A stretch of 64,000 nt of DNA. It comes from Thiomicrorhabdus aquaedulcis (lineage in GTDB: Bacteria; Pseudomonadota; Gammaproteobacteria; Thiomicrospirales; Thiomicrospiraceae). Below are positions 2,237 through 64,000 of the stretch, piece after piece (within the stretch, counting starts at the first letter, position 1; each line of letters opens with the position of its first letter). The notes beneath the pieces were generated by a model. That model ran no database searches and had not been told where the DNA came from. It worked only from the letters and a program-made list of their open reading frames with translations. Where the stretch lies: positions 1,178,001-1,242,000 of the forward strand of contig NZ_AP018722.1 in the NCBI RefSeq assembly GCF_004001325.1, in the 5' to 3' direction. The translations under genes were made by a program, and so were the position numbers.

Positions 2237-2248
2237 ACCAGGCCTGGT
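2237..2248. repeat. Iterated palindrome copy 1
   Basis: Exact ACCAGGCCTGGT, extended to a 14-bp palindrome by flanking A/T. Intergenic, between lrgA and the MITE-like element. Confidence 0.9.
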
Positions 2249-2259
2249 TAAAACCCCTA

Positions 2260-2352
2260 GAGACCTTTGCACGCGTGATGCTAACAATAGGTTTAAATAC
2301 CGCTTGATGGTAAGTGTTAACTATTTTGGCGACACACGCGTGTAAACGTCTA
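2260..2352. mobile_element. MITE-like element 1 (about 93 bp)
   Basis: The left end GAGACCTTTGCACGCGTG (2260-2277) and right end CACGCGTGTAAACGTCT are near inverted repeats. The subterminal segment GTTAACTATTTTGGC is shared with the other copies. It fills the space between pfp and lrgA and ends 2 bp from the pfp stop codon. There is no coding capacity. Confidence 0.6.
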
Positions 2353-2354
2353 TT

Positions 2355-3659
2355 TTAATATTTGACTGCAATAAATTCAGGCAACTGTTTACTTAGTTTT
2401 TTAAAGTTAAGCGGAGCAATGTCGGGTAAACCATTTTTAAATTTAACAGGGCGCTCACCTTGAACCAATGGGCGTAAATAATCTAGTGCGGCGGGGGTAA
2501 TGTCCATGCCGTCTGCCGTGATAAATTCGTCTGGAACGGTTTTTTCAAGGTCGGCCACAGCCACTAGGTTAACGCTTTCAAACTGCCAGTTAAAGGGCGT
2601 GCATGAGCACATTTTTACCACCGGTAATACCCCGTGCTCGCCATTTATAGCCGCGTTAACCGATGCAACCCCTGCATCGTAAGCCATTTGCCAATCGGTC
2701 AGTGACACAATGTGACTGGCCGAGCGTTGCAAATAATCGGGAACGGCACAATGTGTTTTGCTGTTAAGGTGCTCGCTTACCAGGTGTGATAGTTGAGCGC
2801 CAACACCGCCTAATTGGGTGTAATCACGTTCGTGAGTGTGCTCTACGCTGGCAATGCTAAGGTATTGACCATGCTCATCGCGTAATCCTTCAGACACGCA
2901 ACATACGCAATATCCGTGTTGGGCAATTAAGGTTTCGATGCGTGCAATAAATGCTGTTTGATTAAATGCTCGCTCGGCCGGCAAAATAATAATAGGTACG
3001 TCTGGAATGACGTCTTTGACCAGGCCTGCTGCAATGGTTAACCAGCCAGTATTGCGACCCATAGCTTCTAAAATAAAAAACTTGGACGAGGTTTGATACA
3101 TAGACTGAATATCGAGCGTGGCTTCTAAAAAGCTGCTGGCTAAATATTTTGCGGCACTGCCAAAGCCCGGGCTGCAATGCGATAAATCCATGTCATTGTC
3201 GATGGTTTTGGCCACACCTACGCAAATTACTTTATGACCACGCTCTCCACAATAGTCGGCCACTTTTTGCGCAGTAACCATTGAACCATTTCCGCCATTG
3301 TAAAAAAAGTAGCCAATGTTGTACGCTTTAAAGACCTCAAGCACTCGGTCGTATTGCGCGGTATTGTGCTCGATTGGGTCAAGGTCAAATCGACAAGCCT
3401 TAAAGACTGCGCCAGGCTGGCGCTTTAAGTGTTCTAAGGTTTCTGTATCCATATTGGTAACGTCTACCATGTCTTCTTCTAACACACCTTTAATGCCATT
3501 GATGGCGGCGTAGCACCGGCCAAAAATGTGTGGGTTTGCTTGAACGGTTTCAATTACCCCAGCCGCACTGGTGTTTATAACCGCCGTTACGCCGCCGGCT
3601 TGGGCATAAAGTACATTGTTGTTTTGTGATGTGTTGTTCAAAGGGAATATTCCTTGCAA
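2355..3659 (-). CDS. pfp: 6-phosphofructokinase, PPi-type clade (phosphate donor uncertain)
   Basis: A 434-residue phosphofructokinase that interconverts fructose 6-phosphate and fructose 1,6-bisphosphate. The nucleotide/PPi loop is GGNGS (residues 122-126) and the catalytic loop is KTIDND (151-156), followed by HCSPGFGSAAKY. The overall sequence and length resemble the diphosphate-dependent enzymes found in methanotrophs and sulfur oxidisers. However, the fourth residue of GGNGS is Gly, as in ATP-dependent enzymes, whereas Asp is usual in PPi enzymes. The Lys before TIDND is the PPi-type residue, although some ATP-dependent trypanosomal enzymes also carry it. Donor specificity therefore cannot be read with certainty. 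It stands alone with no operon partner. Confidence 0.85.
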   Translation of the reverse strand: MQGIFPLNNTSQNNNVLYAQAGGVTAVINTSAAGVIETVQANPHIFGRCYAAINGIKGVLEEDMVDVTNMDTETLEHLKRQPGAVFKACRFDLDPIEHNTAQYDRVLEVFKAYNIGYFFYNGGNGSMVTAQKVADYCGERGHKVICVGVAKTIDNDMDLSHCSPGFGSAAKYLASSFLEATLDIQSMYQTSSKFFILEAMGRNTGWLTIAAGLVKDVIPDVPIIILPAERAFNQTAFIARIETLIAQHGYCVCCVSEGLRDEHGQYLSIASVEHTHERDYTQLGGVGAQLSHLVSEHLNSKTHCAVPDYLQRSASHIVSLTDWQMAYDAGVASVNAAINGEHGVLPVVKMCSCTPFNWQFESVNLVAVADLEKTVPDEFITADGMDITPAALDYLRPLVQGERPVKFKNGLPDIAPLNFKKLSKQLPEFIAVKY

Positions 3660-3713
3660 GATGAACTAGATTGAATAATTAAAGGTGCTTAGAGTCTATT
3701 GCTTATATTATCG

Positions 3714-4931: not shown

Positions 4932-6414
4932 GAGTGAGAGTTTAAAAGTTCGTATGAGTCAGAGCAAGGATAATTGCACTAAAGCACAAAAAATTCACAT
5001 ATTAGGCATTGCCGGCACGTTTATGGGCGGTATTGCACAAATTGCTCAAGCCATGAGCTTTGACGTGAGCGGATCGGATAAAGCTATTTACCCACCCATG
5101 AGCACTCAATTGGCGCAAGCAGGTATAACGGTCAGCGACGAACAAAGCCTTGAATTTTTAAACGCATGCCCAAACAGTGTTGTTATTGGTAACGCCTTAA
5201 GTCGAGGTCATATTGCGGTTGAGGCCACTTTAAATGCACAGCAATTGTACACTTCAGGCCCGCAATGGTTAGCCGAAAATGTTTTAAAAGACTGTTGGGT
5301 AATCGCGGTTGCGGGCACTCATGGTAAAACCACCACAGCCTCCATGGTGGCTTGGATTTTAGAGTATGTTGGATTAAATCCTGGTTTTTTAATTGGCGGT
5401 GTTCCTGCTAACTTTGGTGTGTCAGCGCGTTTGGGTGCAAAGCCTTTTTTTGTAGTAGAGGCCGATGAATACGACACGGCTTTTTTTGATAAACGCTCAA
5501 AATTTGTGCATTATCGACCACGTACCTTGGTGATAAATAACTTGGAGTTTGATCACGCTGATATTTTTGAAAATTTAGCCGCTATTCAGACTCAGTTTCA
5601 TCATTGTGTGCGCACGGTACCAGGCAATGGTTTGATTGTGTTGCCGGTAGACGACCCCAATGTTGACGCCGTGATTGCCAAAGGCTGTTGGACGGCGTTG
5701 CAAACGCAGAGCCTTGCTCATAAAGAGGAGGGTGGCAAAGCTGATTGGCACGCTAATGTCGTGCGCGCGGATGGCTCAGAGTTTGAGGTGTTTTATCGCG
5801 GACAACTGGTGGGAACGGTAGCCTGGCCCATGACAGGTTTACACAATGTACGCAATGCGATAAGCGCGTTGGCTGCGGCACAACACGCTGGCGTTCCTAT
5901 TAAAGAAGGTCTTGTTGCGTTAAGTCTTTTTAAGGGTGTGGCGCGGCGCATGAGTTGGGTAGGTGAGGTGAATGGAATTACGGTATTTGATGATTTTGCA
6001 CATCATCCCACTGCTATTGCAACCACGTTAGAAGGAGCCAAGCAGCGTTTAATGCAGAATAATCAAATTAATAAACTCACCAGGCCTGGTCGTTTAATTG
6101 CAGTATTTGAACCACGTTCAAATACCATGCGCATGGGTATTCATGCCAAAACTTTGCCGGCATCGTTTGCCTGTGCGGATGCGGTGTATGCATTTATTGA
6201 CCCTGTGTGGCAGTGGAATTTACCCACCAAACAATTTAGTCAACCTGTGCGTGTGCTGAATGCTTATGAAGATTTGTTGCAGTGTTTGTTAAATGATTTA
6301 GAGCCAGGCGATACCGTGGTGGTGATGAGCAATGGAAGTTTTGGTGAGATTCATCAAAAATTAGTGGCGGGATTGAAAAACAAATATAAACTCTCTGCAG
6401 TTGCCGAGAGTTAA
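4930..6414 (+). CDS. mpl: UDP-N-acetylmuramate:L-alanyl-gamma-D-glutamyl-meso-diaminopimelate ligase
   Basis: A cytoplasmic murein-recycling ligase that attaches recovered tripeptide to UDP-MurNAc using ATP. N-terminal HILGIAGTFMGG is the UDP-binding loop, AGTHGKTTTASM is the Mur-ligase P-loop (around residue 130), and DDFAHHPTAI and EPRSNTMRMG mark the central and C-terminal domains. The length (494) fits the family with a short N-terminal extension; ATG at 4954 is an alternative start. The iterated palindrome occurs in-frame at 6079 (encoding TRPGR). It is divergent from rnd with overlapping start codons. Confidence 0.93.
   Translation: MSESLKVRMSQSKDNCTKAQKIHILGIAGTFMGGIAQIAQAMSFDVSGSDKAIYPPMSTQLAQAGITVSDEQSLEFLNACPNSVVIGNALSRGHIAVEATLNAQQLYTSGPQWLAENVLKDCWVIAVAGTHGKTTTASMVAWILEYVGLNPGFLIGGVPANFGVSARLGAKPFFVVEADEYDTAFFDKRSKFVHYRPRTLVINNLEFDHADIFENLAAIQTQFHHCVRTVPGNGLIVLPVDDPNVDAVIAKGCWTALQTQSLAHKEEGGKADWHANVVRADGSEFEVFYRGQLVGTVAWPMTGLHNVRNAISALAAAQHAGVPIKEGLVALSLFKGVARRMSWVGEVNGITVFDDFAHHPTAIATTLEGAKQRLMQNNQINKLTRPGRLIAVFEPRSNTMRMGIHAKTLPASFACADAVYAFIDPVWQWNLPTKQFSQPVRVLNAYEDLLQCLLNDLEPGDTVVVMSNGSFGEIHQKLVAGLKNKYKLSAVAES
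6079..6090. repeat. Iterated palindrome copy 2 (inside mpl)
   Basis: Exact ACCAGGCCTGGT inside the mpl coding region, read in the frame giving TRPGR. Confidence 0.9.
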
Positions 6415-6451
6415 ATAAATTTAAGTACTTGGATTTAAGTGCATAAATCTA

Positions 6452-6484
6452 CACGCACCCATTAATGAAGTTTAGTGGTGCGTG
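6452..6484. terminator. Hairpin between convergent mpl and DAHP synthase genes (weak terminator)
   Basis: CACGCACC (6452-6459) pairs with GGTGCGTG (6477-6484) around a 17-nt loop, between two converging genes. No T-run follows, so intrinsic termination is uncertain. It is followed by AAAGGTCTC, which resembles a lone right end of the MITE-like family. Confidence 0.35.
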
Positions 6485-6497
6485 ATCTAGAAAGGTC

Positions 6498-8299: not shown

Positions 8300-9118
8300 T
8301 TATAAAATCGTTGGACCTAAAAATAATGTAACCCAGCCACCCAATGCTAAAAAAGGACCAAATGCCATGGGTGTGTCCATGTTACGTTGTTTTAAGGCTA
8401 TGCCGACCATGCCTAATGCGATGCTGGCTAAGGCTGCAATCAGTATAATTTGCGCAATCGCAGCAATACCAAACCAGGCGCCAAGTGCGGCTAATAGCTT
8501 AAAGTCTCCGTATCCCATGCCTTCTTTGCCGGTAAAAAATTTAAAACTGTGAAACACCATCCAAAGTAAAGCATACCCCAATACAGCCCCCCAAATAGCC
8601 TCTGTTGGCGAGGTAAAAACACTTTGAGTGTTAATAATGAGCCCCAGCCAAAGCAGTGGTAGGCTTAAATTGTCTAAAATTAAATGGTGTTCAAAATCAA
8701 TTACACAAATCGTAATTAAAATCCAGCTAAAGACAAGCGCGGCTAACGCTATAAACGTTGGGCCAAAATACCACACAATGTAAGCGGTGGTGATAGCGGT
8801 AGTGAGTTCAATAATAGGGTAGCGCGGTGAGATTTTAACTTTGCAATGATGGCATGTGCCGCGACTGGCTAGCCAGCTTAAAACAGGAATAAGCCGATAC
8901 CAAGGCAGGCGTGTTGAGCAGTGTGGGCATTTTGACCCACCCACGCTAATAGATTTTAGTGTTGATTCTTCATCCAATAATAGTATGCGCGGTAAGCGCC
9001 AGCTTAACATCGAAATAAAGCTGCCAATTATGAGGCCTAATAGACCGCTAAAAAAAAGAAGTTGTGGGATGCTGATGTGACTAAAGTAGCCCAAGGTATC
9101 AACAGAAAGGTTTGTCAT
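8300..9118 (-). CDS. pilD: Type IV prepilin peptidase (A24 family)
   Basis: An inner-membrane aspartic protease that cleaves and N-methylates type IV pilins and type II secretion pseudopilins. The 272-residue protein has two CxxC pairs (Cys64/67 and Cys89/92) in the cytoplasmic loop. The catalytic aspartates fall in ICVIDFEHH (Asp141) and in GMGYGDFKLL (Asp205), and about seven hydrophobic segments are present. No pilB/pilC/coaE genes are next to it, unlike many gammaproteobacteria. Its product implies pili, and possibly DNA uptake, elsewhere in the genome. Confidence 0.92.
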   Translation of the reverse strand: MTNLSVDTLGYFSHISIPQLLFFSGLLGLIIGSFISMLSWRLPRILLLDEESTLKSISVGGSKCPHCSTRLPWYRLIPVLSWLASRGTCHHCKVKISPRYPIIELTTAITTAYIVWYFGPTFIALAALVFSWILITICVIDFEHHLILDNLSLPLLWLGLIINTQSVFTSPTEAIWGAVLGYALLWMVFHSFKFFTGKEGMGYGDFKLLAALGAWFGIAAIAQIILIAALASIALGMVGIALKQRNMDTPMAFGPFLALGGWVTLFLGPTIL

Positions 9119-9152: not shown

Positions 9153-9164
9153 ACCAGGCCTGGT
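9153..9164. repeat. Iterated palindrome copy 3
   Basis: Exact ACCAGGCCTGGT between queD and pilD, 34 bp upstream of the pilD start. Confidence 0.9.
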
Positions 9165-10981: not shown

Positions 10982-11614
10982 ATGTTTATTGTTTACAGCC
11001 CAGAAGGGCAACGCATCATAGGAGCCAGTTTGATACCGCCGTTAAAAGTGGATCCTGCCTCACGCATCAATCCAGTTGAGCAGGCTGGATTTGGAGCGGT
11101 AAACGTTGAAGAGCACGAACGCGAAAACCCCGCAAAACGAGCGCAAAGTCCATTAAATGCTTACGAGCTTATGCAAAAACAAGAACAAGGTAGGCGTTTG
11201 GTGGTTAAGGTCGCCGATATTATGTCCTATCCGGTTATTCACGTGTCGTCTGAATGGACTATTGAACAGGCCTGGTTGCTTATGCAGCAACATAAAATTA
11301 AGCATTTGCCTGTGTTAATGCACGATCGTTTAGTGGGTATTTGTTCACAAGATGATTTATTGGCGCGCATAATTTTATCCAAAAAAGGCGATATTGAAGG
11401 GGTAAAAGCCGAGCAAGTGGCCGATGTTATGCACGCCAATGTCATTACCACTGTGCCCGAGACTGATATTAGACGGGTTGCACAAGTGTTTGATGATTAT
11501 TCGATTGGCGCGTTGCTGGTGATGAGTACACAAGGTGTGATGCTGGGAATTGTGACTAAAATGGATTTAATTCATCGACTCTCACAAGAGCCTCCTTTGG
11601 AGCTTTATGTTTAA
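10982..11614 (+). CDS. CBS-domain pair protein
   Basis: A 210-residue soluble protein with an uncharacterised N-terminal segment (about 1-75) followed by two CBS domains. The first contains VADIMSYPVIHVSSEWT and KHLPVLMHDRLVGICSQDDLL, the second VADVMHANVITTVPETD and GALLVMSTQGVMLGIVTKMDL. Tandem CBS pairs bind adenine nucleotides; the target here is unknown. The start at 10982 is chosen because a GGAG lies upstream and protein-like sequence begins there. An open frame runs a further 29 codons upstream, but that stretch lies within the MITE-like element. It may signal energy state, which is only a family-based guess. Confidence 0.8.
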   Translation: MFIVYSPEGQRIIGASLIPPLKVDPASRINPVEQAGFGAVNVEEHERENPAKRAQSPLNAYELMQKQEQGRRLVVKVADIMSYPVIHVSSEWTIEQAWLLMQQHKIKHLPVLMHDRLVGICSQDDLLARIILSKKGDIEGVKAEQVADVMHANVITTVPETDIRRVAQVFDDYSIGALLVMSTQGVMLGIVTKMDLIHRLSQEPPLELYV

Positions 11615-12562: not shown

Positions 12563-14350
12563 ATGCGCACGCATTATTGTGGACAAGTTACAGAATCCTT
12601 AATTGAACAAACGGTTACAGTGGCCGGTTGGATTCATCGTCGTCGAGATCACGGCGGAGTTATTTTTATTGACCTACGTGATCGAGAAGGACTTGTGCAA
12701 ATTGTGGTTAATCCGGATACCGTTGATACCTTTGCAAAAGCAGAGCGTTTGCGCTCAGAGTGCGTCTTAAAAATTACTGGTTTAGTCATTGCTCGCAGCG
12801 CAGGCACGGTTAACCCCAATATGACCACCGGTCAAATTGAAATTGTGGCCACCGATCTTGAAATTTTAAGCATGGCTGAGCCGATTCCATTTCAGTTGGA
12901 CGAAAAAAACGTCAGCGAAGAAGTCCGTTTAAAATACCGTTATTTGGATTTACGTCGTCAAGAGATGCAAGACATTATGATGTTGCGCTACAAAGTAACG
13001 CGCGCCATGCGACGTTATTTAGACGATAAAAACTTTATGGACATTGAAACACCCATATTAACCAAATCAACCCCCGAAGGCGCGCGCGACTATTTGGTGC
13101 CCAGTCGTACCCATCAAAACAAGTTTTTTGCGTTGCCGCAATCGCCGCAACTGTTTAAGCAGTTGTTGATGATGTCAGGCTTTGACCGTTACTATCAAAT
13201 TACCCGCTGTTTCCGTGACGAAGATTTGCGCGCCGATCGTCAACCCGAATTTACGCAGTTGGATATTGAAACCTCGTTTATGGAAGAAGACGCGGTAATG
13301 GACTTAATGGAAGGGCTGTTTAAAACCTTGTTTAGAGAGTGTATTGGGGTTGATTTTGATTACCCATTTGAGCGCATGCCGTATTCAGAAGCCATACAAA
13401 AATACGGTATTGACCGTCCCGATTTGCGTTTTGATATGCAGTTGGTGGATGTAGCCGATTTATTACAAGATATTGATTTTAAAGTGTTTGCCGCACCCGC
13501 TAAAGACCCTAAAGGTCGGGTTGCAGCGTTGCGCGTGCCCGGTGCGGGCGCAATGTCGCGCAAAGAGATTGACGATTACACCAAGTTTGTGGGCATTTAC
13601 GGTGCTAAGGGCTTGGCCTATATTAAGGTCAATGATTTGGCGGCCGGCATTGACGGTTTGCAGTCGCCGATTGTTAAGTTTTTTCCAGATCAAGTCATTG
13701 AAATTATGCAACGTGTTGGCGCGGTCGATGGCGATATTGTGTTTTTTGGTGCCGACAAAGCCAAAGTGGTCAACGAAGCTTTAGGGGCGTTGCGCGTTAA
13801 AATTGGCGAAGATTTAAAATTACACAATGGTCCATGGCGTCCATTGTGGGTAGTGGACTTTCCTATGTTTGAAGCCGATGACAAAACCGCCCGTGTGGCT
13901 GCGGTGCACCATCCGTTTACCCAGCCTAAAGCGACCACTGAAGAGATTTTAAACCACCCTGAGCCGTCACAACTGTTGTCAAAAGCGTACGACTTGGTGC
14001 TAAACGGTATTGAATTGGGCGGCGGTTCGGTGCGTATTCACGATACCCACATGCAAGCGGCTATTTTTAAAATATTGGGTATTTCTGACGAAGACGCGCA
14101 AGAGAAATTTGGCTTTTTATTGGACGCTTTAAAATACGGTTGCCCACCGCACGCTGGGATGGCATTTGGTCTAGATCGTTTAATTATGTTGATGGCTGGT
14201 CGTGAATCGATTCGCGACGTTATTGCGTTTCCAAAAACACAATCGGCGGCGTGTTTATTAACCGAGGCACCAGGCCTGGTTGATAATGCTCAGTTGCTTG
14301 AGTTGGGTTTAAAGTTTAGAAAGCCAGCTGTTGAGAGCGTGCAAGGTTAA
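12563..14350 (+). CDS. aspS: Aspartyl-tRNA synthetase
   Basis: A class II synthetase of 595 residues charging tRNA-Asp. The N-terminal OB-fold anticodon-binding domain is visible ([23 protein letters not shown]). Motif 2 is [18 protein letters not shown] and motif 3 is [13 protein letters not shown] near the C-terminus. The bacterial insertion (GAD) domain lies between motifs 2 and 3. It precedes nadA closely (4 bp from stop to nadA start), suggesting co-transcription. Whether it is discriminating or also charges tRNA-Asn cannot be judged here. The palindrome at 14269 encodes APGLVD. Confidence 0.96.
14269..14280. repeat. Iterated palindrome copy 4 (inside aspS)
   Basis: Exact ACCAGGCCTGGT in the aspS coding sequence, read as PGLV. 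Confidence 0.9.
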
Positions 14351-15451: not shown

Positions 15452-15475
15452 AAACTGACCAGGCCTGGTCAGTTT
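15452..15475. repeat. Iterated palindrome copy 5, extended to 24 bp
   Basis: The 12-bp core at 15458-15469 is extended by GACC/GGTC, then CT/AG, then AAA/TTT into a perfect 24-bp palindrome between nadA and ruvC. As RNA it can form a long hairpin 13 bp before the ruvC start, so it may act as a terminator or attenuator. Confidence 0.9.
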
Positions 15476-16656: not shown

Positions 16657-17670
16657 ATGATAGAAACCGATCGTATTATTGGCAATCAACAAACCGCAGA
16701 CGACATGTACGTCGCTCCATCAGTGCGCCCCAAACAAATTACTGAGTACATTGGCCAAACGGCCGTGCGTGAGCAATTGCAGTTGTCGATGGACGCAGCA
16801 CGCATGCGCAATGAGCAACTGGATCATGTGCTGTTATACGGTCCACCAGGCCTGGGAAAAACCACGTTAGCCAATATTATTGCCCAAGAAATGGGGGTGA
16901 CATTACGACAAACATCGGGTCCAGTGATTGAAAAACCGGGCGATTTGGCCGCGATATTAACGCGTCTAGAACCGTTTGATGTGTTGTTTGTCGATGAGAT
17001 TCACCGATTAAGCCCCATTGTTGAAGAGATTTTATATCCTGCTATGGAAGATTTTCAGATTGACATTGTGATTGGCGAAGGCCCCGCCGCGCAAAGTGTC
17101 AAAATTGATCTACCGCCGTTTACCTTGGTGGGTGCGACCACGCGTGCCGGTCTATTAACCTCACCGTTACGGGATCGCTTTGGTTTGGTACAACGGTTGG
17201 AGTTTTACAGTGACGAAGAGCTTACCCAAATTATTGCGCGGTCGGCCAATATTTTGGGTATTGCATGTGAACCTATGGGAGCGGCCGAAGTGGCCAAACG
17301 TTCGCGCGGCACTCCACGGATTGCAAACCGTCTACTGCGTCGGGTACGTGACTATGCGCAAGTGCGTGGACAAGGTGTTATTACCGCTAATATGGCTGAC
17401 TTAGCCCTAAATTTATTAGAGGTTGACCCCATGGGCTTAGATAAAATGGACAGGCGATTTTTAGAAACCTTAATTCAAAAATTTGATGGAGGGCCTGTTG
17501 GTATTGACAGCATGGCTACGGCATTAGGTGAAGAACGTGGCACCATTGAAGATGTAATTGAGCCTTTTTTAGTGCAACAAGGTTTTTTAATACGAACTCC
17601 GCGCGGCCGAATGGCGACTCGGCATGCGTATCAACACTTAGGTGAGGAGTTGCCCGCCTCAATGAAGTAA
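16657..17670 (+). CDS. ruvB: Holliday junction DNA helicase motor RuvB
   Basis: A 337-residue AAA+ ATPase driving branch migration. Walker [10 protein letters not shown] is at residues 62-70 and Walker [10 protein letters not shown] near 110, with sensor 1 at GATTRAG and a C-terminal winged helix ending in RTPRGRMAT. The DNA for Walker A includes ACCAGGCCTGGG, one base from the iterated palindrome; here the protein sequence alone explains it. A 200-bp gap with no recognised gene follows before tolQ. Confidence 0.97.
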
Positions 17671-24555: not shown

Positions 24556-24567
24556 ACCAGGCCTGGT
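24556..24567. repeat. Iterated palindrome copy 6
   Basis: Exact ACCAGGCCTGGT between the tRNA-Lys terminator and the converging Rossmann-fold gene. Confidence 0.9.
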
Positions 24568-25765: not shown

Positions 25766-26883
25766 ATGAGTTTAAATAAAGATAACCCACATCAAAAACA
25801 TTTACGCAAACAAGATTTGTTGCTCGCATCCAAAGATGACTGTGCTTTTTTTAAAGAAGTGCTTGAAGGCTTATCCACAGCGGTGGTGTGGGTAGATGCA
25901 AATGAAAAAATTCGTTTTATGAATGTTGCAGCTGGGGAGATTTTTCAAACCAGTACTACGCGAATCTTGGGTCGTAACTGGAGTTTTATCTTACCAGGCC
26001 TGTTAGACAATATTTATTTGGCGCAAGAAAAGAAACTTACCATTCACGAATATACCGTGGAGTTGGCTGATTTTAATAAAGTGCGCGTCAGCTGTACTAT
26101 TTCACCCTATGAAATGAACGGTCAAACAGGCTGGTTAATTGAAATTTTTAACACCGAACGCCATCACCGTATTGTAGAAGAAGATGAGCGTTGGCACCAA
26201 TATGAAGCGGGTAATTTACTGGTGCGCACTTTAGCGCATGAGGTTAAAAATCCATTAGCAGGCATTTTGGGTGCTACGCAACTACTGCAAAAACGACACC
26301 AGCCAGGTGATAAAGATTTGGCATTTTTAGAGATTATCTCTAAAGAGGTGCTGCGCCTAAAAAATTTAGTCGACCGTATGCTAGGGCCTAAATTAAGCGC
26401 GACTAAGGACTATCACAATATTCACGAACTGATTCGCTATGTTTTGCAGATTATAGAAGGTGAAAAACCAGCCAACGTTTACGTTAAGCTTGATTATGAT
26501 CCTAGTATTCCTGAGATTATGATGGATTTTGAAGCCATGGTGCAAGCATTACTTAATTTGCTTAAAAACGCCATTCAAGCAATGGAGGCGCACGGTGGCT
26601 TGTTGACCATTAAAACTCGTGTAGAGCATAAGTTTACTTTAGGGGCGTTTACTTACCCATTGGTAGCCGTGCTCAGCATAATGGATGAAGGAGAGGGCAT
26701 TCCAGAAGAGGTCTTTGACTCTATATTTTACCCCATGGTCAGCTCAAAAAAGAAGGTTCAGGCTTAGGTTTGCCAGTGTCTCAAAATGTATTACGCCAGC
26801 ATGATGGCTTGATTGTGGCTGAAAGTAAACCGGGTAAAACCGTGTTTAACGTCTATTTACCGTTAAAGCAAAAGGAGCGCTAA
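25766..26883 (+). pseudogene. glnL: Nitrogen regulation sensor kinase NtrB, broken by a one-base shift
   Basis: A soluble histidine kinase that phosphorylates NtrC under nitrogen limitation and is checked by PII. A PAS domain (about 30-130) is followed by the phosphoacceptor box LAHEVKNPLAG (His158), the N box LLNLLKNAIQAM and the G1 box MDEGEGIPEE. The frame stops at 26767, after SSKKKVQA. One extra A in the A6 run at 26746-26751 restores SSKKEGSGLGLPVSQ and a 372-residue protein ending 1 bp before ntrC. As written, the G2 ATP-lid is missing and the kinase would be inactive. A sequencing indel is a likely explanation. Confidence 0.85.
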
Positions 26884-28350: not shown

Positions 28351-28362
28351 ACCAGGCCTGGT
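28351..28362. repeat. Iterated palindrome copy 7
   Basis: Exact ACCAGGCCTGGT 32 bp after the ntrC stop codon, where a terminator would be expected. No T-run follows closely except TTTTT 3 bp downstream. Confidence 0.9.
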
Positions 28363-31987: not shown

Positions 31988-32017
31988 AAGCGTATGACCA
32001 GGCCTGGTCAAACGCTT
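31988..32017. repeat. Iterated palindrome copy 8 inside a composite hairpin
   Basis: The exact ACCAGGCCTGGT core (31997-32008), extended by TG/CA, is bracketed by AAGCGT and ACGCTT. The transcript can form a long interrupted stem just after argG, which may add to termination or mRNA end protection. Confidence 0.85.
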
Positions 32018-34452: not shown

Positions 34453-34464
34453 ACCAGGCCTGGT
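34453..34464. repeat. Iterated palindrome copy 9
   Basis: Exact ACCAGGCCTGGT 30 bp before the start of the following small gene and 37 bp after the symporter stop. Confidence 0.9.
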
Positions 34465-43716: not shown

Positions 43717-44577
43717 ATGAACCAGGGTTTCCAATCTTTTTTAAAGCAGTGGTACACCACGCAACCCGCCTCAAACCTGCTACGGCAGGAGAAAGTCTTG
43801 ACTGAAAAAGCGTTGCAAAATTTATTTGGTTATTTTTTAATTCAGCTTGGTAATGCAGCGCCAATTTCTTTTTTAAATGAAAGTCGTATTAAGCATAAAG
43901 TCTTGGTTGACGACGCATTTGATACTAAAGACCCTAGTTTTGTGGGAATAAAGTATGTAAAAGCAGATTTAGATTTCTTGCCTATCGCTAATGAATCTAC
44001 TGACGTGGTGTTTATGCCACATACCTTAGAGTTAGCAGAAGATCCGTATCTGCTATTAAGACAGGTGGACTCGATGCTAGTCCCTCAAGGTCATGTGGTC
44101 ATTACTGGCTTTAACCCTTATGGATGTGCCGTTTTACGCTTTAGAGCGCAGTCACGAAACAAATGGTTGCGTCACGCTCACTTGGTAAGGTTAAGGCGCT
44201 TAAAAGAATGGCTCGAGGTGTTAGGTTATGACATTAAATGGCAAGTGCACGCTCCTGTATATTGTTTTGGTAAGCCTGGATCAGAACAACCAGGCCTGGT
44301 CATGTGGTTTTTTAAAGCACTTGAATGGTGTGAAAAAGTCTTGAGTAAAGTGGGTTTTGATTTTGGTAATATTTATTGTTTGGTTGCTCAAAAAAGAGTA
44401 GATGCTCCAAAGTTAGTGGGTAAACGCTGGCACACACCAAACTGGATGTCTATTGCCGCTAAAGGTGTGATGCCAATGCAAAATCGGTCACGTTTACCTG
44501 GATTTTTTCAGCGTGTTGTTTGCAGGTTAAGGCGATTAAAATTATTTAGTTTTTTGACTAAAAAAACGTGTGATTAA
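43717..44577 (+). CDS. Class I SAM-dependent methyltransferase (YafS-like)
   Basis: A 286-residue protein whose central part (LPIANESTDVVFMPHTLELAEDPYLLLRQVDSMLVPQGHVVITGFNP split over residues 92-138) follows the Methyltransf_11 pattern, although the first SAM-binding glycine motif is weak. Divergent from gloB and upstream of rnhA, it corresponds by position to E. coli yafS, of unknown substrate. The C-terminal tail is rich in Arg and Lys. The palindrome at 44289 encodes QPGLVM. Confidence 0.75.
   Translation: MNQGFQSFLKQWYTTQPASNLLRQEKVLTEKALQNLFGYFLIQLGNAAPISFLNESRIKHKVLVDDAFDTKDPSFVGIKYVKADLDFLPIANESTDVVFMPHTLELAEDPYLLLRQVDSMLVPQGHVVITGFNPYGCAVLRFRAQSRNKWLRHAHLVRLRRLKEWLEVLGYDIKWQVHAPVYCFGKPGSEQPGLVMWFFKALEWCEKVLSKVGFDFGNIYCLVAQKRVDAPKLVGKRWHTPNWMSIAAKGVMPMQNRSRLPGFFQRVVCRLRRLKLFSFLTKKTCD
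44289..44300. repeat. Iterated palindrome copy 11 (inside the methyltransferase gene)
   Basis: Exact ACCAGGCCTGGT, read in-frame as PGLV. Confidence 0.9.
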
Positions 44578-52392: not shown

Positions 52393-52492
52393 CATTTTAA
52401 AAGTTGTTTATAACAGCTTTTTTATTGCAAATCTTCAGGAGTTTGCAATAAGTTTTACTAAAGTGTATTCCCATTACATTTTAAAATATCCT

Positions 52493-52568: not shown

Positions 52569-52576
52569 TACAATTA

Positions 52577-53813: not shown

Positions 53814-56211
53814 TCACTGCAAAGTAACGCGGTCGGCTAATTGCTGAATGGACAGCGGTATAAATGAAAATTCTTTTGGGGTGGTGGGGTAGCCTAGATA
53901 GTAACCCTGGCCTTCGTCGCAGCCCATTTTTCGCAAAAGGGTGAGTTGTTGAGCGGTTTCGATGCCTTCGGCCAATACTTTTAAGCCAAGGCTGTGTCCC
54001 ATGGTAATAATGGCCGACACGATGCTGTCAGACTCTTCATTTTGTCCCAGATCGTTAATAAAGCTACGATCGATTTTAATGCGATCCACTGACAAGTGTT
54101 TGATGTAGGCAAGCGATGAGTAACCTGTGCCAAAGTCGTCAATTGAAATTTCGATGCCTTGGTTTTGCAAGACTTCGAGAGCAGTTTTGTGTTGTTTTAG
54201 ATTTTCCATTAACACGGTTTCGGTGATTTCTAAATCAATTTGGTGGGCATGAATGTCAGAGTTTTTAAGGGCGTGTTCAACATCGGCGACAAAGCTGTGC
54301 AAACTAATTTGAGCCGAAGAGACGTTAATGGCCATTTTAGGCAGCAATAATCCTTGTTGTTGCCAGTGTGCTAGTTGTTGAATACTGGTGCGCATTACAA
54401 ACTCACCAATGGCGTGTATAAGGCCAAACTTTTCAGCCAACGGTATAAATTCGGCAGGGGAGACTGCTTTACCCAGATGCTGCCAACGAACTAAGGCTTC
54501 GGCACCAGTAAGCTGTCCATTTTGCAGGTTGTATTGCGGCTGAAAATGAATGTTTAGCTCATGGTTGGTTAGGGCTGTTTGCAAATTGTGTTCCATGTCA
54601 TATAAATAATGAATGCGTTCATTCATCGCCTCTGAAAAAAAGCAATATTGATTTTTACCCTGTTCTTTAGCTTTGTACATAGCAAAATCGGCGTGGCGCA
54701 TTAGGGCGGCTTGCGTTGTGCCGTCTTTAGGATACGAGGCTACGCCAATGCTGCAACCAATCGATTTTGAGTATTGATTAATTTGATTAACTTGCGCGCA
54801 GCAATTTAAAATTTGGTCGGCCATCATTACGTGACAGTTATCGTCACAGTTTTCAACCAAAACGGCAAATTCATCACCGCCTAAACGACAAACCAATACT
54901 TGGCGATTGGTTTCAAAGGTATTGGCTAATTGGGTTGCAATTTGCAATAAAAACTGGTCGCCAGAGCCGTGTCCTAACGTGTCGTTAATCCATTTAAAGT
55001 TATCTAAGTCAATGTAAAATAAGCTAAATTGCTCAATTTTTTCATTAGAAAGCGCGCGGCTTAAGTAAGTTTGAAAATAGTGACGATTGGGCAGTTGAGT
55101 AACAGGATCAAAGTTGGCCAAATGCTCAAGATGCTGTTGAGTGGTTTTGAGTTCGCTTACGTCAGTCAGCAGTAAGGAAATATAGCGTTGGTCTAGTTGT
55201 TCATCGTTTACACAATAAATATCAATAAAATAATGGCACGCTCTGGTGTCTATCACCAACTCACATTCGTGGCGCGTATAGCCATACTCCCCCAACGATT
55301 TTTTTATGGACTCAATAGACAGAGCGGGTAAAAGTGTTTGGATGACTTGCCAAAGGTTGTCGCAGGTTAGGTTTGCGGACGAGAGCAGTTGATTAAATTT
55401 TTGATTGGTTTTGACCATGTCGCCTGTGCAACTGGCCACTGCGACGGCTTCATGAATATTATGTAAAACACTGCTGTCCAGATGCAGTTCGAGGGTGCGT
55501 TTTTTAACTTGGGTTTCAAGCGTTTGTTGAAACAGGGTTTGCGCTTGACCAAGCTGGCGTAAACGCTTAAGGGTAAACAAGCTGATTATCAATAAGCTTA
55601 TGCCAAATACAAGCGATAAGCTTATCCACAACACTTTATTAGAACTAAGATAACCGTGCATTTTTTGTTCGGCCAAATTGGCCTTGGTGTTGAGCTCTTC
55701 TTGAAACAACGTCAAGATTTCAAGGGCTTGCTCTTGAACGGGCAGGGTTACGTCAACTAAAAATTGCCGTGCGTTATCGGCATTTTCTTGCGTCATTAGA
55801 TTGTAAACGTGACTTTGATTGTCACGGTTTTGGGTGGTAATACGAAAAAGTTGTTTTAACCAGGCCTGGTGGTCTTGATCGGTAACCCGTTGGCTAATCT
55901 GTTGTGCGGCTTGGGTAATGGACAAGGCTACAATATCCATCTCTCGTTGAATATCGTCTATTAAAAAAGGATCGGTGGTGGCAATCATTCTTAACAAAAG
56001 CACGCTGCGATCACGCGCACCGCGAATCATGACTGCCGCATCGTTTTGCTGTTCACGTATTTAGTTGCAACTGGGTGGTGGTTTGCTGAATATTACGTTC
56101 TAGTGTAAAAAAGAATGCGCTGGACAGGCCAATTAAAGCCAATAGCAATGCATATCCCCACGCTACCACGCGCACACTGGTTTGACTTGAAAGTTTATTG
56201 TCTGCGAACAC
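53814..56211 (-). pseudogene. Membrane GGDEF-EAL protein, broken by a one-base shift near the N-terminus
   Basis: A cyclic-di-GMP enzyme with two transmembrane segments around a periplasmic helical sensor, a PAS-like region, a GGDEF domain (RLGGDEFAVL) and an EAL domain (GAEALVRWQH, DDFGTGYSSL). Both active sites look intact, so it may be bifunctional. The long frame starts at 56030, without the first membrane helix. An upstream frame from GTG 56211 (AGGA 7 nt before) encodes it and ends in QLQLNT. Removing one A (T3 run at 56060-56062) gives QLQLIREQQNDAAVMIRGARDRS and a 798-residue protein. As written, translation from an internal start would lose membrane anchoring. Confidence 0.8.
55859..55870. 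repeat. Iterated palindrome copy 12 (inside the GGDEF-EAL gene)
   Basis: Exact ACCAGGCCTGGT, read on the minus strand as HQAWL rather than PGLV. Confidence 0.9.
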
Positions 56212-57584: not shown

Positions 57585-57596
57585 ACCAGGCCTGGT
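57585..57596. repeat. Iterated palindrome copy 13
   Basis: Exact ACCAGGCCTGGT, extended to 14 bp by A/T, occupying the -35 region of the predicted glnS promoter. Confidence 0.9.
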
Positions 57597-57635: not shown

Positions 57636-57647
57636 ACCAGGCCTGGT
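57636..57647. repeat. Iterated palindrome copy 14
   Basis: Exact ACCAGGCCTGGT, extended by G/C to 14 bp, only 51 bp from copy 13 and inside the probable glnS leader. Confidence 0.9.
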
Positions 57648-57702: not shown

Positions 57703-59373
57703 ATGAGCAAAGTTGACACAGTGGAACGTCCCGTAAATTTTATTCGCAATATCATTGATGACGATTTAGCATCTCATAAACACACGCAAATTCAAACGCG
57801 CTTTCCACCCGAACCTAATGGTTATTTGCACATTGGGCACGCCAAATCCATCTGCTTAAATTTTGGTTTAGCGCAAGATTATAACGGTTTGTGCAACCTG
57901 CGTTTTGACGACACCAATCCTGCCAAAGAAGACCTAGAATACGTCGATTCCATCAAAGCCGATGTGGCGTGGTTGGGCTTTGAATGGAGCGGTAATCCGC
58001 GTTATTCGTCCGACTATTTTGAGCAGTTTTACCGCTACGCCGTTGAGTTAATTGAAAAAGGTTTGGCGTATGTCTGTTTTTTAAACGCCGAAGAAACCCG
58101 TCAATACCGTGGCACGCTCAAAGAGCCTGGGCAAAATAGCCCGTATCGCGATACTGCGGTGGCCGAAAACTTAGCCCTATTTGCTAAAATGCGCGCCGGT
58201 GGTTTTAAAGAGGGTGAATGCGTGTTGCGCGCCAAAATAGACATGGCGTCGAGTTTTATGTGCATGCGCGACCCTACGTTGTACCGTGTGCGTTTTGAAC
58301 ACCATCACCAAACCGGTGACGCATGGTGCATTTACCCTATGTACGATTTTGCCCACTGTATTTCTGACGCGATTGAAGACATTACCCATTCGTTGTGTAC
58401 GCTTGAGTTTCAAGACAACCGTCGTTTGTACGACTGGGTGTTAGACAATCTTAACGACTTTAACAAACCCGATCGTCCGCATCAGTATGAGTTTTCGCGT
58501 TTAAATTTAGAATACACGGTCATGTCCAAACGCAAACTGCATCAATTGGTGGCCGATAAATTGGTATCGGGCTGGGACGATCCACGCATGCCAACCATTT
58601 CTGGGCTGCGTCGTCGCGGTTATACCCCGGCCTCGTTGCGTGATTTTGCCGAACGCATTGGTATCTCAAAAGTAGACAGCGTAACCGAAATGAACATTTT
58701 AGAAGCTGCCATTCGCGACGATTTAAACGTAAACGCCCCTCGCAGCATGGCGGTGTTAAACCCGCTAAAAGTGGTGATTGAAAACTACCCCAATTCGCAA
58801 CCCGAATCGATTCAAGCGCCGGTGCACCCGCAAAATGAAGCGATGGGCAAGCGTGAAATTTTCTTTGGTCGTGAGTTGTACATTGACCGCGCCGATTTTG
58901 AAATGGTCGCCCCCGACGCTAAGTTTCAGCGTTTGGCGTTAGACAAAGAGATTCGCTTGCGCAACAGCTACATTATTAAAGCTCTGCGCGTTGAACACGA
59001 TGCACAAGGACAAATCAGCACGGTTTATTGCAGTTACGACCACGATACCCTGGGCAAAAACCCAGCCGACGGTCGCAAAGTAAAAGGGGTGATTCATTTT
59101 GTTGAAGCCAGCCATGCGCTGCCGGCCGAGTTTAGACTGTATGATCGGCTCTTTAGTGTGGCCAATCCGGGTAAAAGCGATGATTTTGAAAGCGTTATGA
59201 ACCCAGATTCTTTGGTGATACAACACGGTTTTATCGAACCAGGCCTGGTGAATTCTCTGCCTGAACAGGCGTATCAGTTTGAGCGCGAAGGCTATTTTTG
59301 CCGCGACAATCAAGCCGGTTCGGCGCAAATTTACAATCGTACGGTCGCGCTACGCGACACTTGGGGAGCTTAA
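57703..59373 (+). CDS. glnS: Glutaminyl-tRNA synthetase
   Basis: A class I synthetase of 556 residues that charges tRNA-Gln directly, so this organism need not use the transamidation route for Gln. HIGH is at residues 43-46 ([10 protein letters not shown]), the KMSKS-like VMSKRKL is near residue 272, and two beta-barrel anticodon domains follow ([19 protein letters not shown]). It is followed directly by a DUF3010 gene. The palindrome at 59238 encodes EPGLVN. Confidence 0.96.
59238..59249. repeat. Iterated palindrome copy 15 (inside glnS)
   Basis: Exact ACCAGGCCTGGT, read as PGLV. Confidence 0.9.
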
Positions 59374-59864: not shown

Positions 59865-59876
59865 ACCAGGCCTGGT
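59865..59876. repeat. Iterated palindrome copy 16, extended to 18 bp
   Basis: Exact core extended by TTG/CAA to an 18-bp perfect palindrome (59862-59879), 41 bp after the DUF3010 stop and 64 bp before dbpA. Confidence 0.9.
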
Positions 59877-59940: not shown

Positions 59941-61320
59941 ATGTCCCGCACCTTTGAACACCTGGATTTACCGCTTAGCGCGCTAGAGAACTTAACCCAA
60001 TTGGGTTATGAGTTTATGACGCAAATTCAAGAAGAGGCGTTGCCACTGGCGTTGGGTGGGCACGATTTGATTGCACAAGCCAAAACCGGCAGTGGAAAAA
60101 CCGCCGCGTTTGGGATTCCCATGCTGAATAAAGTCGATGTCAAACGCATGGACATTCAGGGTTTGGTCATTTGCCCCACGCGTGAACTCAGCAATCAGGT
60201 GGCCGAAGAGTTGCGTCGTTTGGCGCGTTTTCAACCCAATTTAAAAGTGGTGGTGTTAAGCGGCGGCATTGCGTTGCGTCCGCAAATTGCCTCGTTAGAA
60301 TACGGTGCACACATTGTGGTGGGTACGCCAGGGCGTTTGCAAGACCACATTGACAAGGGGCATTTAAACCTAAGTCACATTACCACGTTGGTGTTGGACG
60401 AAGCCGATCGCATGCTTGAAATGGGCTTTAAAGAAGCGATGATTTCGATTATTGGCGATTTGCCTAAAGAGCGCCAAACGCTGCTGTTTTCGGCGACTTT
60501 TCCGGCTGACATTGAATACATTAGCCGTCGTTTTCAAAAAAATCCCATGCAAATCTCGGTTGAATCGCATCACAGTATGGACACGATTGACCAGCAATTT
60601 TACATTTGTCACCATAAAGACAAACTACCAGGCCTGGTTAAGTTGCTTAATCACAACGCGTTTGAACACGGTATGATTTTTTGCAACACCAAAGCTTTGG
60701 TGACCGAGGTGGTAGATTTTTTAAACGAAAAAGGCATTCATGCCGTAGGTTTGCATGGCGACATGGAGCAGCGCGAGCGCGAACAAATTTTAATTCGCTT
60801 TAAACACCACAGCGTAAGCTATTTGGTGGCCACTGACGTGGCGGCGCGTGGCTTAGACATTGAAGCCTTACCCATGGTTATAAACTACGAATTGCCGCGC
60901 AACCAAGACACCTATGTGCACCGCATTGGACGCACCGGACGCGCTGGATTAGACGGCGTGGCGATTACGTTGTTTACCGAAAAAGAGCGTTATAAACTTG
61001 CTCAATTGGGTGAGTTTCAGGGGCATCCTTTGTCGTATGAGTCAATTGACATTGTGCCTAGCGCCCGCGCGCAGCGCATTGAGCCCAAATACATTACCTT
61101 GTATATCTCGGGTGGACGTAAAGACAAAGTACGTCGTGGCGATGTCTTAGGCGCGTTAACGGGAGAGGCTGGGATTGACGCCCAGCACATTGGTAAAATT
61201 GACGTGGTGGAGCATTCAACCTATTTTGCAATTGAAACCCCCTTTGCCGCGCAAGCAGTAAGCCGGTTAAATCAAGGTAAGATAAAAGGTAAAAAGTTTA
61301 AAGTAGGGCGGGTTGAGTAA
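59941..61320 (+). CDS. dbpA: ATP-dependent RNA helicase DbpA
   Basis: A 459-residue DEAD-box helicase that acts on 23S rRNA hairpin 92 during large-subunit assembly. Walker A AKTGSGKTAA, PTRELSNQV, VLDEADRM, SATFPA, and HRIGRTGRAG are all present. The C-terminal KYITLYISGGRKDKVRRGD begins the DbpA-specific RNA-binding domain, which separates it from RhlE or SrmB. The palindrome at 60627 encodes LPGLVK. It is monocistronic and ends at a shared terminator. Confidence 0.94.
   Translation: MSRTFEHLDLPLSALENLTQLGYEFMTQIQEEALPLALGGHDLIAQAKTGSGKTAAFGIPMLNKVDVKRMDIQGLVICPTRELSNQVAEELRRLARFQPNLKVVVLSGGIALRPQIASLEYGAHIVVGTPGRLQDHIDKGHLNLSHITTLVLDEADRMLEMGFKEAMISIIGDLPKERQTLLFSATFPADIEYISRRFQKNPMQISVESHHSMDTIDQQFYICHHKDKLPGLVKLLNHNAFEHGMIFCNTKALVTEVVDFLNEKGIHAVGLHGDMEQREREQILIRFKHHSVSYLVATDVAARGLDIEALPMVINYELPRNQDTYVHRIGRTGRAGLDGVAITLFTEKERYKLAQLGEFQGHPLSYESIDIVPSARAQRIEPKYITLYISGGRKDKVRRGDVLGALTGEAGIDAQHIGKIDVVEHSTYFAIETPFAAQAVSRLNQGKIKGKKFKVGRVE
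60627..60638. repeat. Iterated palindrome copy 17 (inside dbpA)
   Basis: Exact ACCAGGCCTGGT, read as PGLV. Confidence 0.9.
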
Positions 61321-61401: not shown

Positions 61402-61428
61402 GTTTTAAGTCGTAAAAGTGTCAGTGTT

Positions 61429-61902
61429 TTAAACGCCCAGCGCCTTAACGCGCGCTAACATGTCGGCTGCATGACCTTCTGGGCTTACACCGTACAATGC
61501 GGCCTCTAAGACACCGTTTTTATTAATTAAAAACGTCGAGCGTACAATGCCCATTTTTTTCTCACCATTTTTCTCTTTTTCTTGCCAGACATCGTATGCC
61601 GCACAGACCGATCCGTCGGTGTCGGCCAATAAATGCAGTTGCAAATTAAACTTGTTAATAAACGCTTGATGGCTCGCGCAATTGTCTTTACTGACGCCAA
61701 TCACCACGGCATTGGCTTCGTTAAACGCTGGGCTTAAGGTGCTAAAATCGTTGGCTTCAATGGTGCAACCCGGGGTGTCATCCTTGGGGTAAAAATACAA
61801 CACCACGTGTTGCTTGCCTATAAAGTCGCTTAATTGCACGGTGTGTTGGTCTTGGTTTACGCTCTTAAAATGGGGAGCGGTTTGCTGGGCTTGTAACATC
61901 AT
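61429..61902 (-). CDS. bcp: Thioredoxin-dependent peroxiredoxin (BCP/PrxQ type)
   Basis: A 157-residue cytoplasmic peroxidase. The peroxidatic Cys46 is in DDTPGCTIEANDF. The resolving Cys that often follows five residues later is absent (Asn51 instead). Two other Cys (NCASHQ and SVCAAYD) might resolve it, or it could be a 1-Cys enzyme. FYPKDDTPGC and VRSTFLINKNG are the family signatures. AAGGA precedes the start; ATG codons 1 and 2 are both possible. Confidence 0.93.
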   Translation of the reverse strand: MMLQAQQTAPHFKSVNQDQHTVQLSDFIGKQHVVLYFYPKDDTPGCTIEANDFSTLSPAFNEANAVVIGVSKDNCASHQAFINKFNLQLHLLADTDGSVCAAYDVWQEKEKNGEKKMGIVRSTFLINKNGVLEAALYGVSPEGHAADMLARVKALGV

Positions 61903-62057
61903 GGAGATTCCTTAAAGGTAAATTGAGTTAAATTGGCACGCTAATTAGGTTAATTTCCGATAAAATGATACGCTATTTTTAAACCATTTTGACTCAATTA
62001 TACGTTTGGAAACCCCCTCTTAATGCTTATTTTGCTTGCTTGTTACACTGCGTTGCT

Positions 62058-64000
62058 ATGCTGACCCCCTTTTTACAGGCTCGATCTTTAATAGGGCTTA
62101 CGCTCGTATCTTTATTGATATTGGTCTTAGGAGTGGGGCTTACAGGGATACTCTTTAAAGCACAAGAAGCTGATAAAATTCGTGCGTTGGAAGGCGCATT
62201 TGAACAACACAGCCATAAGGCCGAAGTTGCTATTAGACGTGCGTTAAGCCATCAACGCGACCGTTTAAAAAGTTTAGCAGTGGTCTTTGAGGTATCTAAA
62301 AATATATCACGCGACGATTTTAATCAATACGCTAAGGTTTTAATGGCCTCAAAAAATGCCACTCAAGCGTTGGAGTTTTTAAAAATTGTACCTCATGCCG
62401 ATCGTGATTTTTTTGAGGAATCGGTTCGTGCCGAAGGTTTTAGTGACTTTAATATTACCGCTATGAGTCATGGTGTTTTGGTTAAAGCACCCGTGGCCGA
62501 TGAATACGCAGTGGTTAAATATGTATACCCGTTTAATGAAAATAAAATGGCATTTGGGTTAAACGCGTACGCTAACGCCAGTCAAAAAGCCGCCATGCAA
62601 GAAGCGTTTGAGAATAAAGCCATGGTGGTTACATCTCCGCAAAAACTAGTGCAAGCAGCACAAACTAAAAGCGCAGTTATTTTTTATTTGCCGGTATTTA
62701 CCGATGACACTAAAGTGCATTTAAAAGGCTACGCAGCCTTGTTATTGCGTATGGATGAATTTGTGGATTTTATTCAAGAAAAACATCTTTTAGACGCATC
62801 GCTGTTTTATCAATTAGAAGATCCTATGAGTTCCGATAGTGGGTTTATGCAGCTAGGTCCGCATTACAACGCGCAAACCAATCCCAATGTAAGAACATTT
62901 ACTCGAGACTTTTTGGTGGCTGGACGCACCTGGGCACTTACCACGCAGGTTGATTTATTGCGTTTACCGCAGGCTCAAATGTATGCCAAACAAACCCCCT
63001 TTAAACAAATGTTACCAGGCCTGGTCATTAGTGTATTTATGGCTTTATTGGTGTTTTTTGTGGGGCGTTCGTATAAAGAAAAACAACTTAAACGACAAGA
63101 ACTGTTCAAACAAGAGAGTCGTTATCACGACTTAATTGAACAGAGCTCGGACGCGTTCTTTTTGCTTAATTGCGAGGGTTGCATCTTAAACGTCAATTCA
63201 CAAACTGAGCGCTTGCTGGGGTATAAAAAAAGCGAATTAATCGGCATGAACCTAGCCAAAATTGATGTTAAATATTCTAAGTTGCAAATTTCATCCATGT
63301 GTCAGACCATTCAAGCTGGCGAAAAACTGTTAATTGAAAGCCTACACCGTCGTAAAGACGGTACTACTTTGCCTGTTGAAATCAGCGCCAATAAAATATT
63401 ATATGGTGAAGAAATTGTTACCAGCGCCTTTGCGCGTGATTTAACTGAACGCTTATCTTTTAGAGCTTTAAGCGTGGGTAACCTTAAATTGCAAGCGTCC
63501 ATTACCCAAACTACGCAAGCGTTAGAGGCACAAAAAGCCGCATTTGAAACCATTTTTAACCAGTCGGCTGACGGATTTTTTATTACCGCTGGGCGCACAG
63601 TATTAGACTGCAACGAAGCCGCTGTAAGATTGTTGGGCTATTTTAGTAAAGATGCCGTGTTAAATCGTTCAAATCGCTTGTTTTCACCCCGCTTTCAACC
63701 TGATGGTGCACGCTCTACCCGCAAAGGCTTAGAGATGATTTTGTTGTGCCATAAGAACGGTTCGCACACCTATGAATGGGTTAATTTGCGCGCAAATGGT
63801 GAGCTTTTTTGGAGCGATGTGGTGCTTACTCGGATTGATTGTTTCGGCAAGCCGGCCATTTTAATTGCGTTACGTGATATTTCACAACGCAAGTTGTTGG
63901 AAGCACAAATGCAGGCCGCACGCGAAACCGCCGAAAGGGCGCATCAAAGTAAATCTGACTTTTTGGCCAGTATGTCACACGAAATTAGAACGCCGTTGCA
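62058..64000 (+). CDS. CHASE-PAS-PAS sensor histidine kinase (partial, C-terminus outside window)
   Basis: 647 codons are open to the window edge. A first transmembrane helix (about residues 10-35) and a second (about 323-340) bracket a periplasmic CHASE-type domain (around FLKIVPHADRDFF and VKYVYPFNENKMAFG). Two cytoplasmic PAS domains follow (about 355-470 with RRKDGTTLPVEI, and 495-620). The dimerisation box ASMSHEIRTPL places the phosphoacceptor His at 641. KSDFLASMSHEIRTPL is typical of hybrid kinases, so an ATPase, receiver or Hpt domain probably follows. The ligand is unknown. The palindrome at 63014 falls in the second membrane helix. Confidence 0.88.
   Translation, partial: MLTPFLQARSLIGLTLVSLLILVLGVGLTGILFKAQEADKIRALEGAFEQHSHKAEVAIRRALSHQRDRLKSLAVVFEVSKNISRDDFNQYAKVLMASKNATQALEFLKIVPHADRDFFEESVRAEGFSDFNITAMSHGVLVKAPVADEYAVVKYVYPFNENKMAFGLNAYANASQKAAMQEAFENKAMVVTSPQKLVQAAQTKSAVIFYLPVFTDDTKVHLKGYAALLLRMDEFVDFIQEKHLLDASLFYQLEDPMSSDSGFMQLGPHYNAQTNPNVRTFTRDFLVAGRTWALTTQVDLLRLPQAQMYAKQTPFKQMLPGLVISVFMALLVFFVGRSYKEKQLKRQELFKQESRYHDLIEQSSDAFFLLNCEGCILNVNSQTERLLGYKKSELIGMNLAKIDVKYSKLQISSMCQTIQAGEKLLIESLHRRKDGTTLPVEISANKILYGEEIVTSAFARDLTERLSFRALSVGNLKLQASITQTTQALEAQKAAFETIFNQSADGFFITAGRTVLDCNEAAVRLLGYFSKDAVLNRSNRLFSPRFQPDGARSTRKGLEMILLCHKNGSHTYEWVNLRANGELFWSDVVLTRIDCFGKPAILIALRDISQRKLLEAQMQAARETAERAHQSKSDFLASMSHEIRTPL
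63014..63025. repeat. Iterated palindrome copy 18 (inside the sensor kinase gene)
   Basis: Exact ACCAGGCCTGGT, read as PGLV at the start of the second membrane helix. Confidence 0.9.

Follow-up and report, generated by a model that had tools for sequence, protein, structure and literature searches.

A highly repeated palindrome with lineage-specific dialects in Thiomicrorhabdus and its relatives: probable DNA uptake sequences

The palindrome in the window and in its genome

The window, meaning here the whole stretch of 64,000 nt analysed on contig NZ_AP018722.1 of Thiomicrorhabdus aquaedulcis (a genus assigned to Piscirickettsiaceae in the NCBI taxonomy), carries genes that we take, from their sequences, to be aspS, nadA, ruvABC, tol genes, queC and ntr genes, together with many copies of the 12-mer ACCAGGCCTGGT, a perfect palindrome. 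All 18 exact copies listed by the first-pass annotation were recovered at their positions (Table 1), and 100 dinucleotide shuffles yielded 0. Seven of these copies lie within open reading frames (ORFs) of at least 150 aa, the cut-off used for the window, and 11 lie outside, including the copy at 63014, which is near the window end, where ORFs running off were unlisted; the first-pass annotation had counted ten intergenic and eight genic copies. Four of the five close variants named earlier differ by one mismatch, while the one at 57327 differs by more, and of the longer palindromes mentioned there the 24-bp one is present at 15458.

The source genome (G000; 2,537,035 bases) consists of two contigs, one of 2,440,205 bases and one of 96,830 bases, the latter plasmid-like by its genes. 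It contains 718 copies of the 12-mer against 0 of the reversed control word, with a chromosomal density of ~290/Mb. A 444-kb chromosome sample (the window plus 19 stretches) contains 130 exact copies, 46 forms with one mismatch and 30 with two, compared with 0.02, 0.63 and 11.0 expected from base composition; in 40 of the 46 single-mismatch forms the change falls on one of the two outermost positions of a half-site. Scrambled palindromes of the same composition gave no exact copy for 11 of 12 words and one copy for the twelfth. The first-pass annotation would have abandoned its motif if the count had matched composition or if one-mismatch forms had been equally common, and neither is the case.

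Anatomy and placement of the copies

Two bases out from the 12-mer, G000 has an A on 75% of sides (65% in genic and 86% in intergenic copies), followed by A/T and T preferences, so that A/T flanks extend the motif in both genic and intergenic copies. Downstream of genes, the two sides of the copies carry A and T tracts to about the same extent.

With genes defined by a simple ORF rule, 71 of the 130 sampled copies are inside genes and 59 are intergenic, corresponding to densities of 183/Mb inside genes versus 1034/Mb between genes. Among the 57 intergenic copies that could be classified, 41 are in tandem, 14 in convergent and 2 in divergent gaps (1142, 1823 and 195 per Mb, respectively), indicating a bias towards gene 3' ends. 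Spacing is near random (sd/mean 0.93) and without regular placement, and the variance of copy number among the 19 stretches is also close to random. A zero-copy stretch (L011) is no genomic island; it carries genes that we take to be rpoB-, rpoC- and tuf-like.

The plasmid-like contig holds 5 copies versus 28 expected (P about 1e-7). Comparison of this contig with PLSDB named no close relative. By eye, an apparent ParA-ParB fusion in one reading frame is present on it (L028:17907-19511).

Distribution and dialects in the family

Across a family panel of 62 genomes (Thiomicrorhabdus, Hydrogenovibrio and relatives), 26 are motif-rich, defined as having at least 90 copies of the 12-mer (range 93-718); one metagenome-assembled genome (MAG) has 84 copies and the other 35 genomes have 0-38. 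An outgroup panel of 369 genomes drawn from Gammaproteobacteria included 4 family members, and each of the 365 outside the family has at most 5 copies. Absence of the 12-mer from a relative does not always mean loss of the system, since at least six such genomes have words of their own; a word scan restricted to palindromes missed five of these genomes. Throughout the genomes concerned, a word of about 9-12 nt, either the 12-mer or another dialect, is strongly over-represented. These over-represented words and their dialects are a real family-wide system, too abundant for chance.

Two further dialects are ACCGGCCGGT, with 1025 copies in G026 and at most 15 in each of the other 61 family genomes, and CAGGCCTG, which has 104 sites in 300 kb in the G023/G046/G047 group, possesses its own flanks and is present in G041 too. 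The asymmetric dialects comprise two groups and five genomes. The word CCAGGYTGGG occurs 331, 371 and 403 times in G007, G008 and G013, where its consensus is AAAATCTGCCAGGYTGGG, and at most 15 times elsewhere in the family, and AACAGGCCGGG occurs 511 times in G022, where it is preceded by an A-tract, 300 times in G036 and at most 9 times elsewhere in the family. Within single 20-kb sampled stretches these asymmetric words stand on both strands, and all six neighbours less than 40 bp apart, the only such pairs, are inverted pairs. The half-site consists of an A-tract, three to five bases, and CCAGG or ACAGG; asymmetric dialects contain it once, palindromic ones as a back-to-back pair. G014, with CCAGGGGTGG four times in 23.8 kb, is a weak case.

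Dialects share part of the core and, as far as they were placed, fall into clades on a 41-genome tree (FastTree, nine proteins, midpoint root, supports unconsidered, G036 left out). The chilensis group includes G022, the motif-less group includes G026, and G007, G008, G013 and G014 fall together; G000, G022 and G023 bear a common genus label. Two candidate dialects were rejected for want of a clear flank consensus, namely GTTGCAAC in G045 and G028 (6 and 4 copies in 20 kb) and CTAAAGCCA in G028 (10 in 40 kb, 0.48 expected). For genera g2, g4 and g5 and several MAGs, sampling was too thin for a dialect call.

Shared genomic positions

Eight slots in the ruvB neighbourhood were scored in 33 genomes with a dialect (23 main, 10 other) and 8 motif-less genomes, with genomes dropped from a row if the gene was missing or the gap exceeded 400 bp (Table 1). 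Different dialects sit in the same orthologous gaps, for example between nadA and ruvC and 3' of orfX, the latter gap holding AAAAAATCTACCAGGCCTGGTAGATTTT in G005 and AAAAAAATCTACCAGGTTGGG in G008. Copies inside genes sit at orthologous codons.

Table 1. Motif copies and related features of the window, followed by the orthologous slots scored in the family (gene names presumed; fractions are genomes with the slot filled)
Feature	Coordinates	Strand	Remarks
Exact copy	2237..2248		outside ORFs of at least 150 aa
Exact copy	6079..6090		within ORF 4930-6414
Exact copy	9153..9164		between ORFs, upstream of prepilin peptidase ORF
Exact copy	14269..14280		within aspS; slot 18/23 main-dialect genomes
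Exact copy	15458..15469		nadA-ruvC gap; centre of 24-bp palindrome; slot 11/15 main-dialect genomes
Exact copy	24556..24567		intergenic, 3' of ORF 24595-25656(-), 'orfX'; slot 11/13 main-dialect genomes
Exact copy	28351..28362		between ORFs
Exact copy	31997..32008		between ORFs; hairpin-folding flanks, z -4.4
Exact copy	34453..34464		between ORFs; folding same as shuffles, z 0.07
Exact copy	38423..38434		within ORF 37287-38678
Exact copy	44289..44300		within ORF 43717-44577
Exact copy	55859..55870		within ORF 53814-56030(-)
Exact copy	57585..57596		between ORFs; first of close pair
Exact copy	57636..57647		between ORFs; second of close pair, 51 bp apart
Exact copy	59238..59249		within ORF 57703-59373
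Exact copy	59865..59876		between ORFs; hairpin-folding flanks, z -2.6
Exact copy	60627..60638		within ORF 59941-61320
Exact copy	63014..63025		near window end
One-mismatch form	3019..3030		differs by one base
One-mismatch form	11265..11276		differs by one base
One-mismatch form	16845..16856		within ruvB; slot common to relatives
One-mismatch form	25993..26004		within ORF 25766-26767
Type IV prepilin peptidase	8300..9118	-	PF01478 + PF06750; pilus machinery context
Slot: nadA-ruvC gap			main dialect 11/15, other dialects 4/9, motif-less 0/8
Slot: 3' of orfX			main 11/13, other 6/9, motif-less 0/5
Slot: aspS codon 569			main 18/23, other 0/10, motif-less 0/8
Slot: ruvB codon 64			main 12/23, other 0/10, motif-less 0/8
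Slot: ruvB codon 164			main 0/23, other 5/10, motif-less 0/8
Slot: tolA-tolB			main 5/23, other 5/10, motif-less 0/8
Slot: upstream of DUF502			main 0/23, other 6/10, motif-less 0/8
Slot: nadA codon 352			main 0/23, other 0/10, motif-less 0/8

Methylases and competence genes

Methylases were searched as three families (PF00145, PF01555 and PF02086). G000 itself has one PF00145 methylase. None of the three families has a match in 8 of the 26 motif-rich genomes (G021, G025, G048, G049, G006, G058, G060 and G061), or in G026, G023, G046 and G007, which carry other dialects. Because eight motif-rich genomes are without all three, a methylase of these families is rejected as the general cause of the motif, and the earlier suggestion of a methylase with biased repair, on the model of cyanobacterial HIP1, is not supported.

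ComEC (PF03772) has a match in 56 of the 62 family genomes, including all 26 motif-rich ones, and DprA (PF02481) in all 62. Competence genes do not track the motif, because seven of the eight motif-less genomes have ComEC, and ComEC loss as the cause of motif loss is unsupported. ComEC, DprA and the prepilin peptidase are thus permissive for uptake, not discriminating. The short comEC of G022 adjoins phage tail-fibre, DUF1353 and D12 methylase genes (L186:8048-9826 and 3489-7967); this arrangement suggests a prophage insertion. In another stretch (L021:5953-7471), four pilin-like ORFs stand in a row and look, by eye, like type II secretion pseudopilins.

Interpretation as DNA uptake sequences

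Judged from sequence, the 12-mer and its dialects are probably DNA uptake sequences of natural transformation, mostly palindromic. Of the three ideas raised by the first-pass annotation (a methylase with biased repair, a nucleoid or chromosome-organising site, and an uptake signal), uptake is the best supported, by the lineage-specific dialects, the shared positions, the 3'-end bias, the plasmid depletion, the A/T-flanked motif and the inverted pairs. We infer uptake, a receptor, a drive that maintains the copies and some terminator use, as follows. The 12-mer would be the core element in a longer tag for self-recognition, approximately AAWTTnACCAGGCCTGGTnAAWTT. A surface receptor, probably located on a type IV pilus, would bind free DNA by the core together with the A/T tract beside it, and its preference would favour DNA of the same lineage. 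ComEC would then import one strand, and recombination with tagged DNA would maintain and spread the tags. With its two back-to-back half-sites, a palindromic copy could be recognised from either direction, and copies at gene 3' ends may in some cases have come to serve as terminator stems.

Like the DNA uptake sequences (DUS) of Neisseriaceae, the system repeats a short word hundreds to thousands of times (PMC12616744, PMC1852404), with lineage-specific dialects that share a core (PMC3630211, PMC12616744), and it includes inverted pairs, which in DUS act as terminators (PMC3630211, PMC12616744). Unlike DUS, it has other words in another family, dialects that are mostly palindromic, and no ComP-type receptor identified in the stretches scanned for pilins. 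Like the uptake signal sequences (USS) of Pasteurellaceae, it combines a core with an A/T-rich flank, dialects, and both genic and intergenic copies (PMC12616744, PMC1939737); however, the A/T regions of USS lie downstream of an asymmetric core, whereas here they lie on both sides in palindromic dialects or on the left in asymmetric ones, and the downstream-of-gene bias denied for USS (PMC1939737) is present here. An asymmetric word is a trait of known DUS and USS but not a functional requirement, and while the dialect of the window is palindromic, those of some relatives are asymmetric.

Several points weigh against uptake sequences. The 718 copies in G000 fall under the number given as "generally >= 1,000" (PMC1852404), although uptake sequences are elsewhere said to have hundreds or thousands of copies (PMC12616744). 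According to one paper, uptake sequences are never palindromic and for the most part are not inverted repeats and show no preference for sites downstream of genes (PMC1939737), unlike the main dialect, a palindrome with a clear 3' bias. Among the papers listed, searches of open-licence literature found no uptake or natural transformation data and no uptake sequences for these genera; the terms "competence", "DNA uptake" and "transformation" are absent from PMC6501319, and in the available portion of PMC12927875 "natural transformation" and "Thiomicrospira" appear merely in a reference title and a family name. The 12-mer itself was not found in that literature either, in agreement with the earlier remark that it is not a described element. 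In eight genomes (G024, G050, G028, G029, G030, G040, G042 and G051), sampled stretches totalling 40 to 140 kb per genome or genome pair show no convincing word, and the ruvB locus carries none of the known dialects. One of them, G050, has no ComEC match. In G022, ComEC ends at 592 aa without the C-terminal metallo-beta-lactamase domain, yet 511 dialect copies persist. A pilin scan of the fetched stretches gave no minor-pilin receptor candidate, its four pilin-like ORFs all lying in one stretch. As for the shared positions, the eight slots were picked post hoc, four of them are filled in just 0 to 5 of the 23 main-dialect genomes, the sharing of gene-internal slots comes partly from amino-acid conservation, and the related genomes are not independent.

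The first alternative, an unlikely one, is a binding site for a nucleoid or chromosome-organising protein inside the cell, the protein having been lost or re-specified in some lineages. A symmetric site of ~24 bp with A/T flanks, spread genome-wide with near-random variance among the 19 stretches and absent from related genomes, would suit such a protein. However, asymmetric words present hundreds of times in five genomes are not what a homodimer site predicts, and the near-random spacing, the 3'-end bias and the plasmid depletion also speak against it.

A family of intrinsic transcription terminators, very unlikely as a full explanation, would account for the 3'-end bias and for the folding of three of four copies with their flanks (z -1.7, -2.6 and -4.4), but not for the fourth, which folds no better than shuffles. 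An intrinsic terminator would combine a 3' location with a stem and a one-sided T run, whereas here folding is mixed and the T and A tracts, found at genic copies too, are of about equal strength to the left and right. Terminators alone were rejected on these two-sided tracts and on the gene-internal copies, which make up more than half of the sample. Neither a homodimer site nor a terminator alone is sufficient, because asymmetric dialects and gene-internal copies exist.

A dispersed mobile repeat (of the repetitive extragenic palindromic or miniature inverted-repeat transposable element type) or a Chi-like recombination signal is highly improbable. Hundreds of copies and the intergenic preference are in its favour, but the shared part comprises only the core and short A/T flanks, and copies in genes sit at orthologous codons. 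Chi has an orientation bias, unlike the asymmetric dialects with their local mixing of strands, on which a strand-biased recombination signal was rejected.

An origin on the HIP1 model, with the motif as target or by-product of a CCWGG, AGGCCT or GGCC methylase coupled to biased repair, is very improbable: a GC-rich, over-represented palindrome that gives way to different words in certain relatives, with one-off forms concentrated at the outer positions, does recall HIP1 and alternate HIPs (PMC4390886), and G000 has its one methylase, but the tested families are missing in many motif-rich genomes, asymmetric dialects do not fit, and the density here compares with 500-2500 per million for HIPs (PMC4390886).

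Returning to uptake sequences, the evidence leans towards a third bacterial family with genome-wide tags of this kind, in which the tag is usually a palindrome of two back-to-back half-sites and switches between palindromic and asymmetric forms at the same positions. If true, no earlier uptake sequences of palindromic form are known to us. If confirmed, this family would stand beside the two known to have such tags, and a third, free-living case with dialects, symmetry changes and word-less relatives would make it possible to ask how specificity of uptake arises, shifts and is lost, and would offer independent material in which receptors could be sought by covariation.

Other repeated words and minor features

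Other repeated words were seen in the sampled stretches. The 444-kb sample of G000 contains 37 copies of the GC-rich CGCGGGGGGCGC, perhaps a local repeat array. Stretches L037-L039 of G051 contain ~98 occurrences of CTCGCTGCCGCC and words overlapping it in 60 kb, and stretches of G007 and G005 contain words repeated about 18-29 times, perhaps clustered regularly interspaced short palindromic repeat (CRISPR) arrays. In the window, a tRNA-Val/tRNA-Asp pair stands two in a row at 52239-52653.

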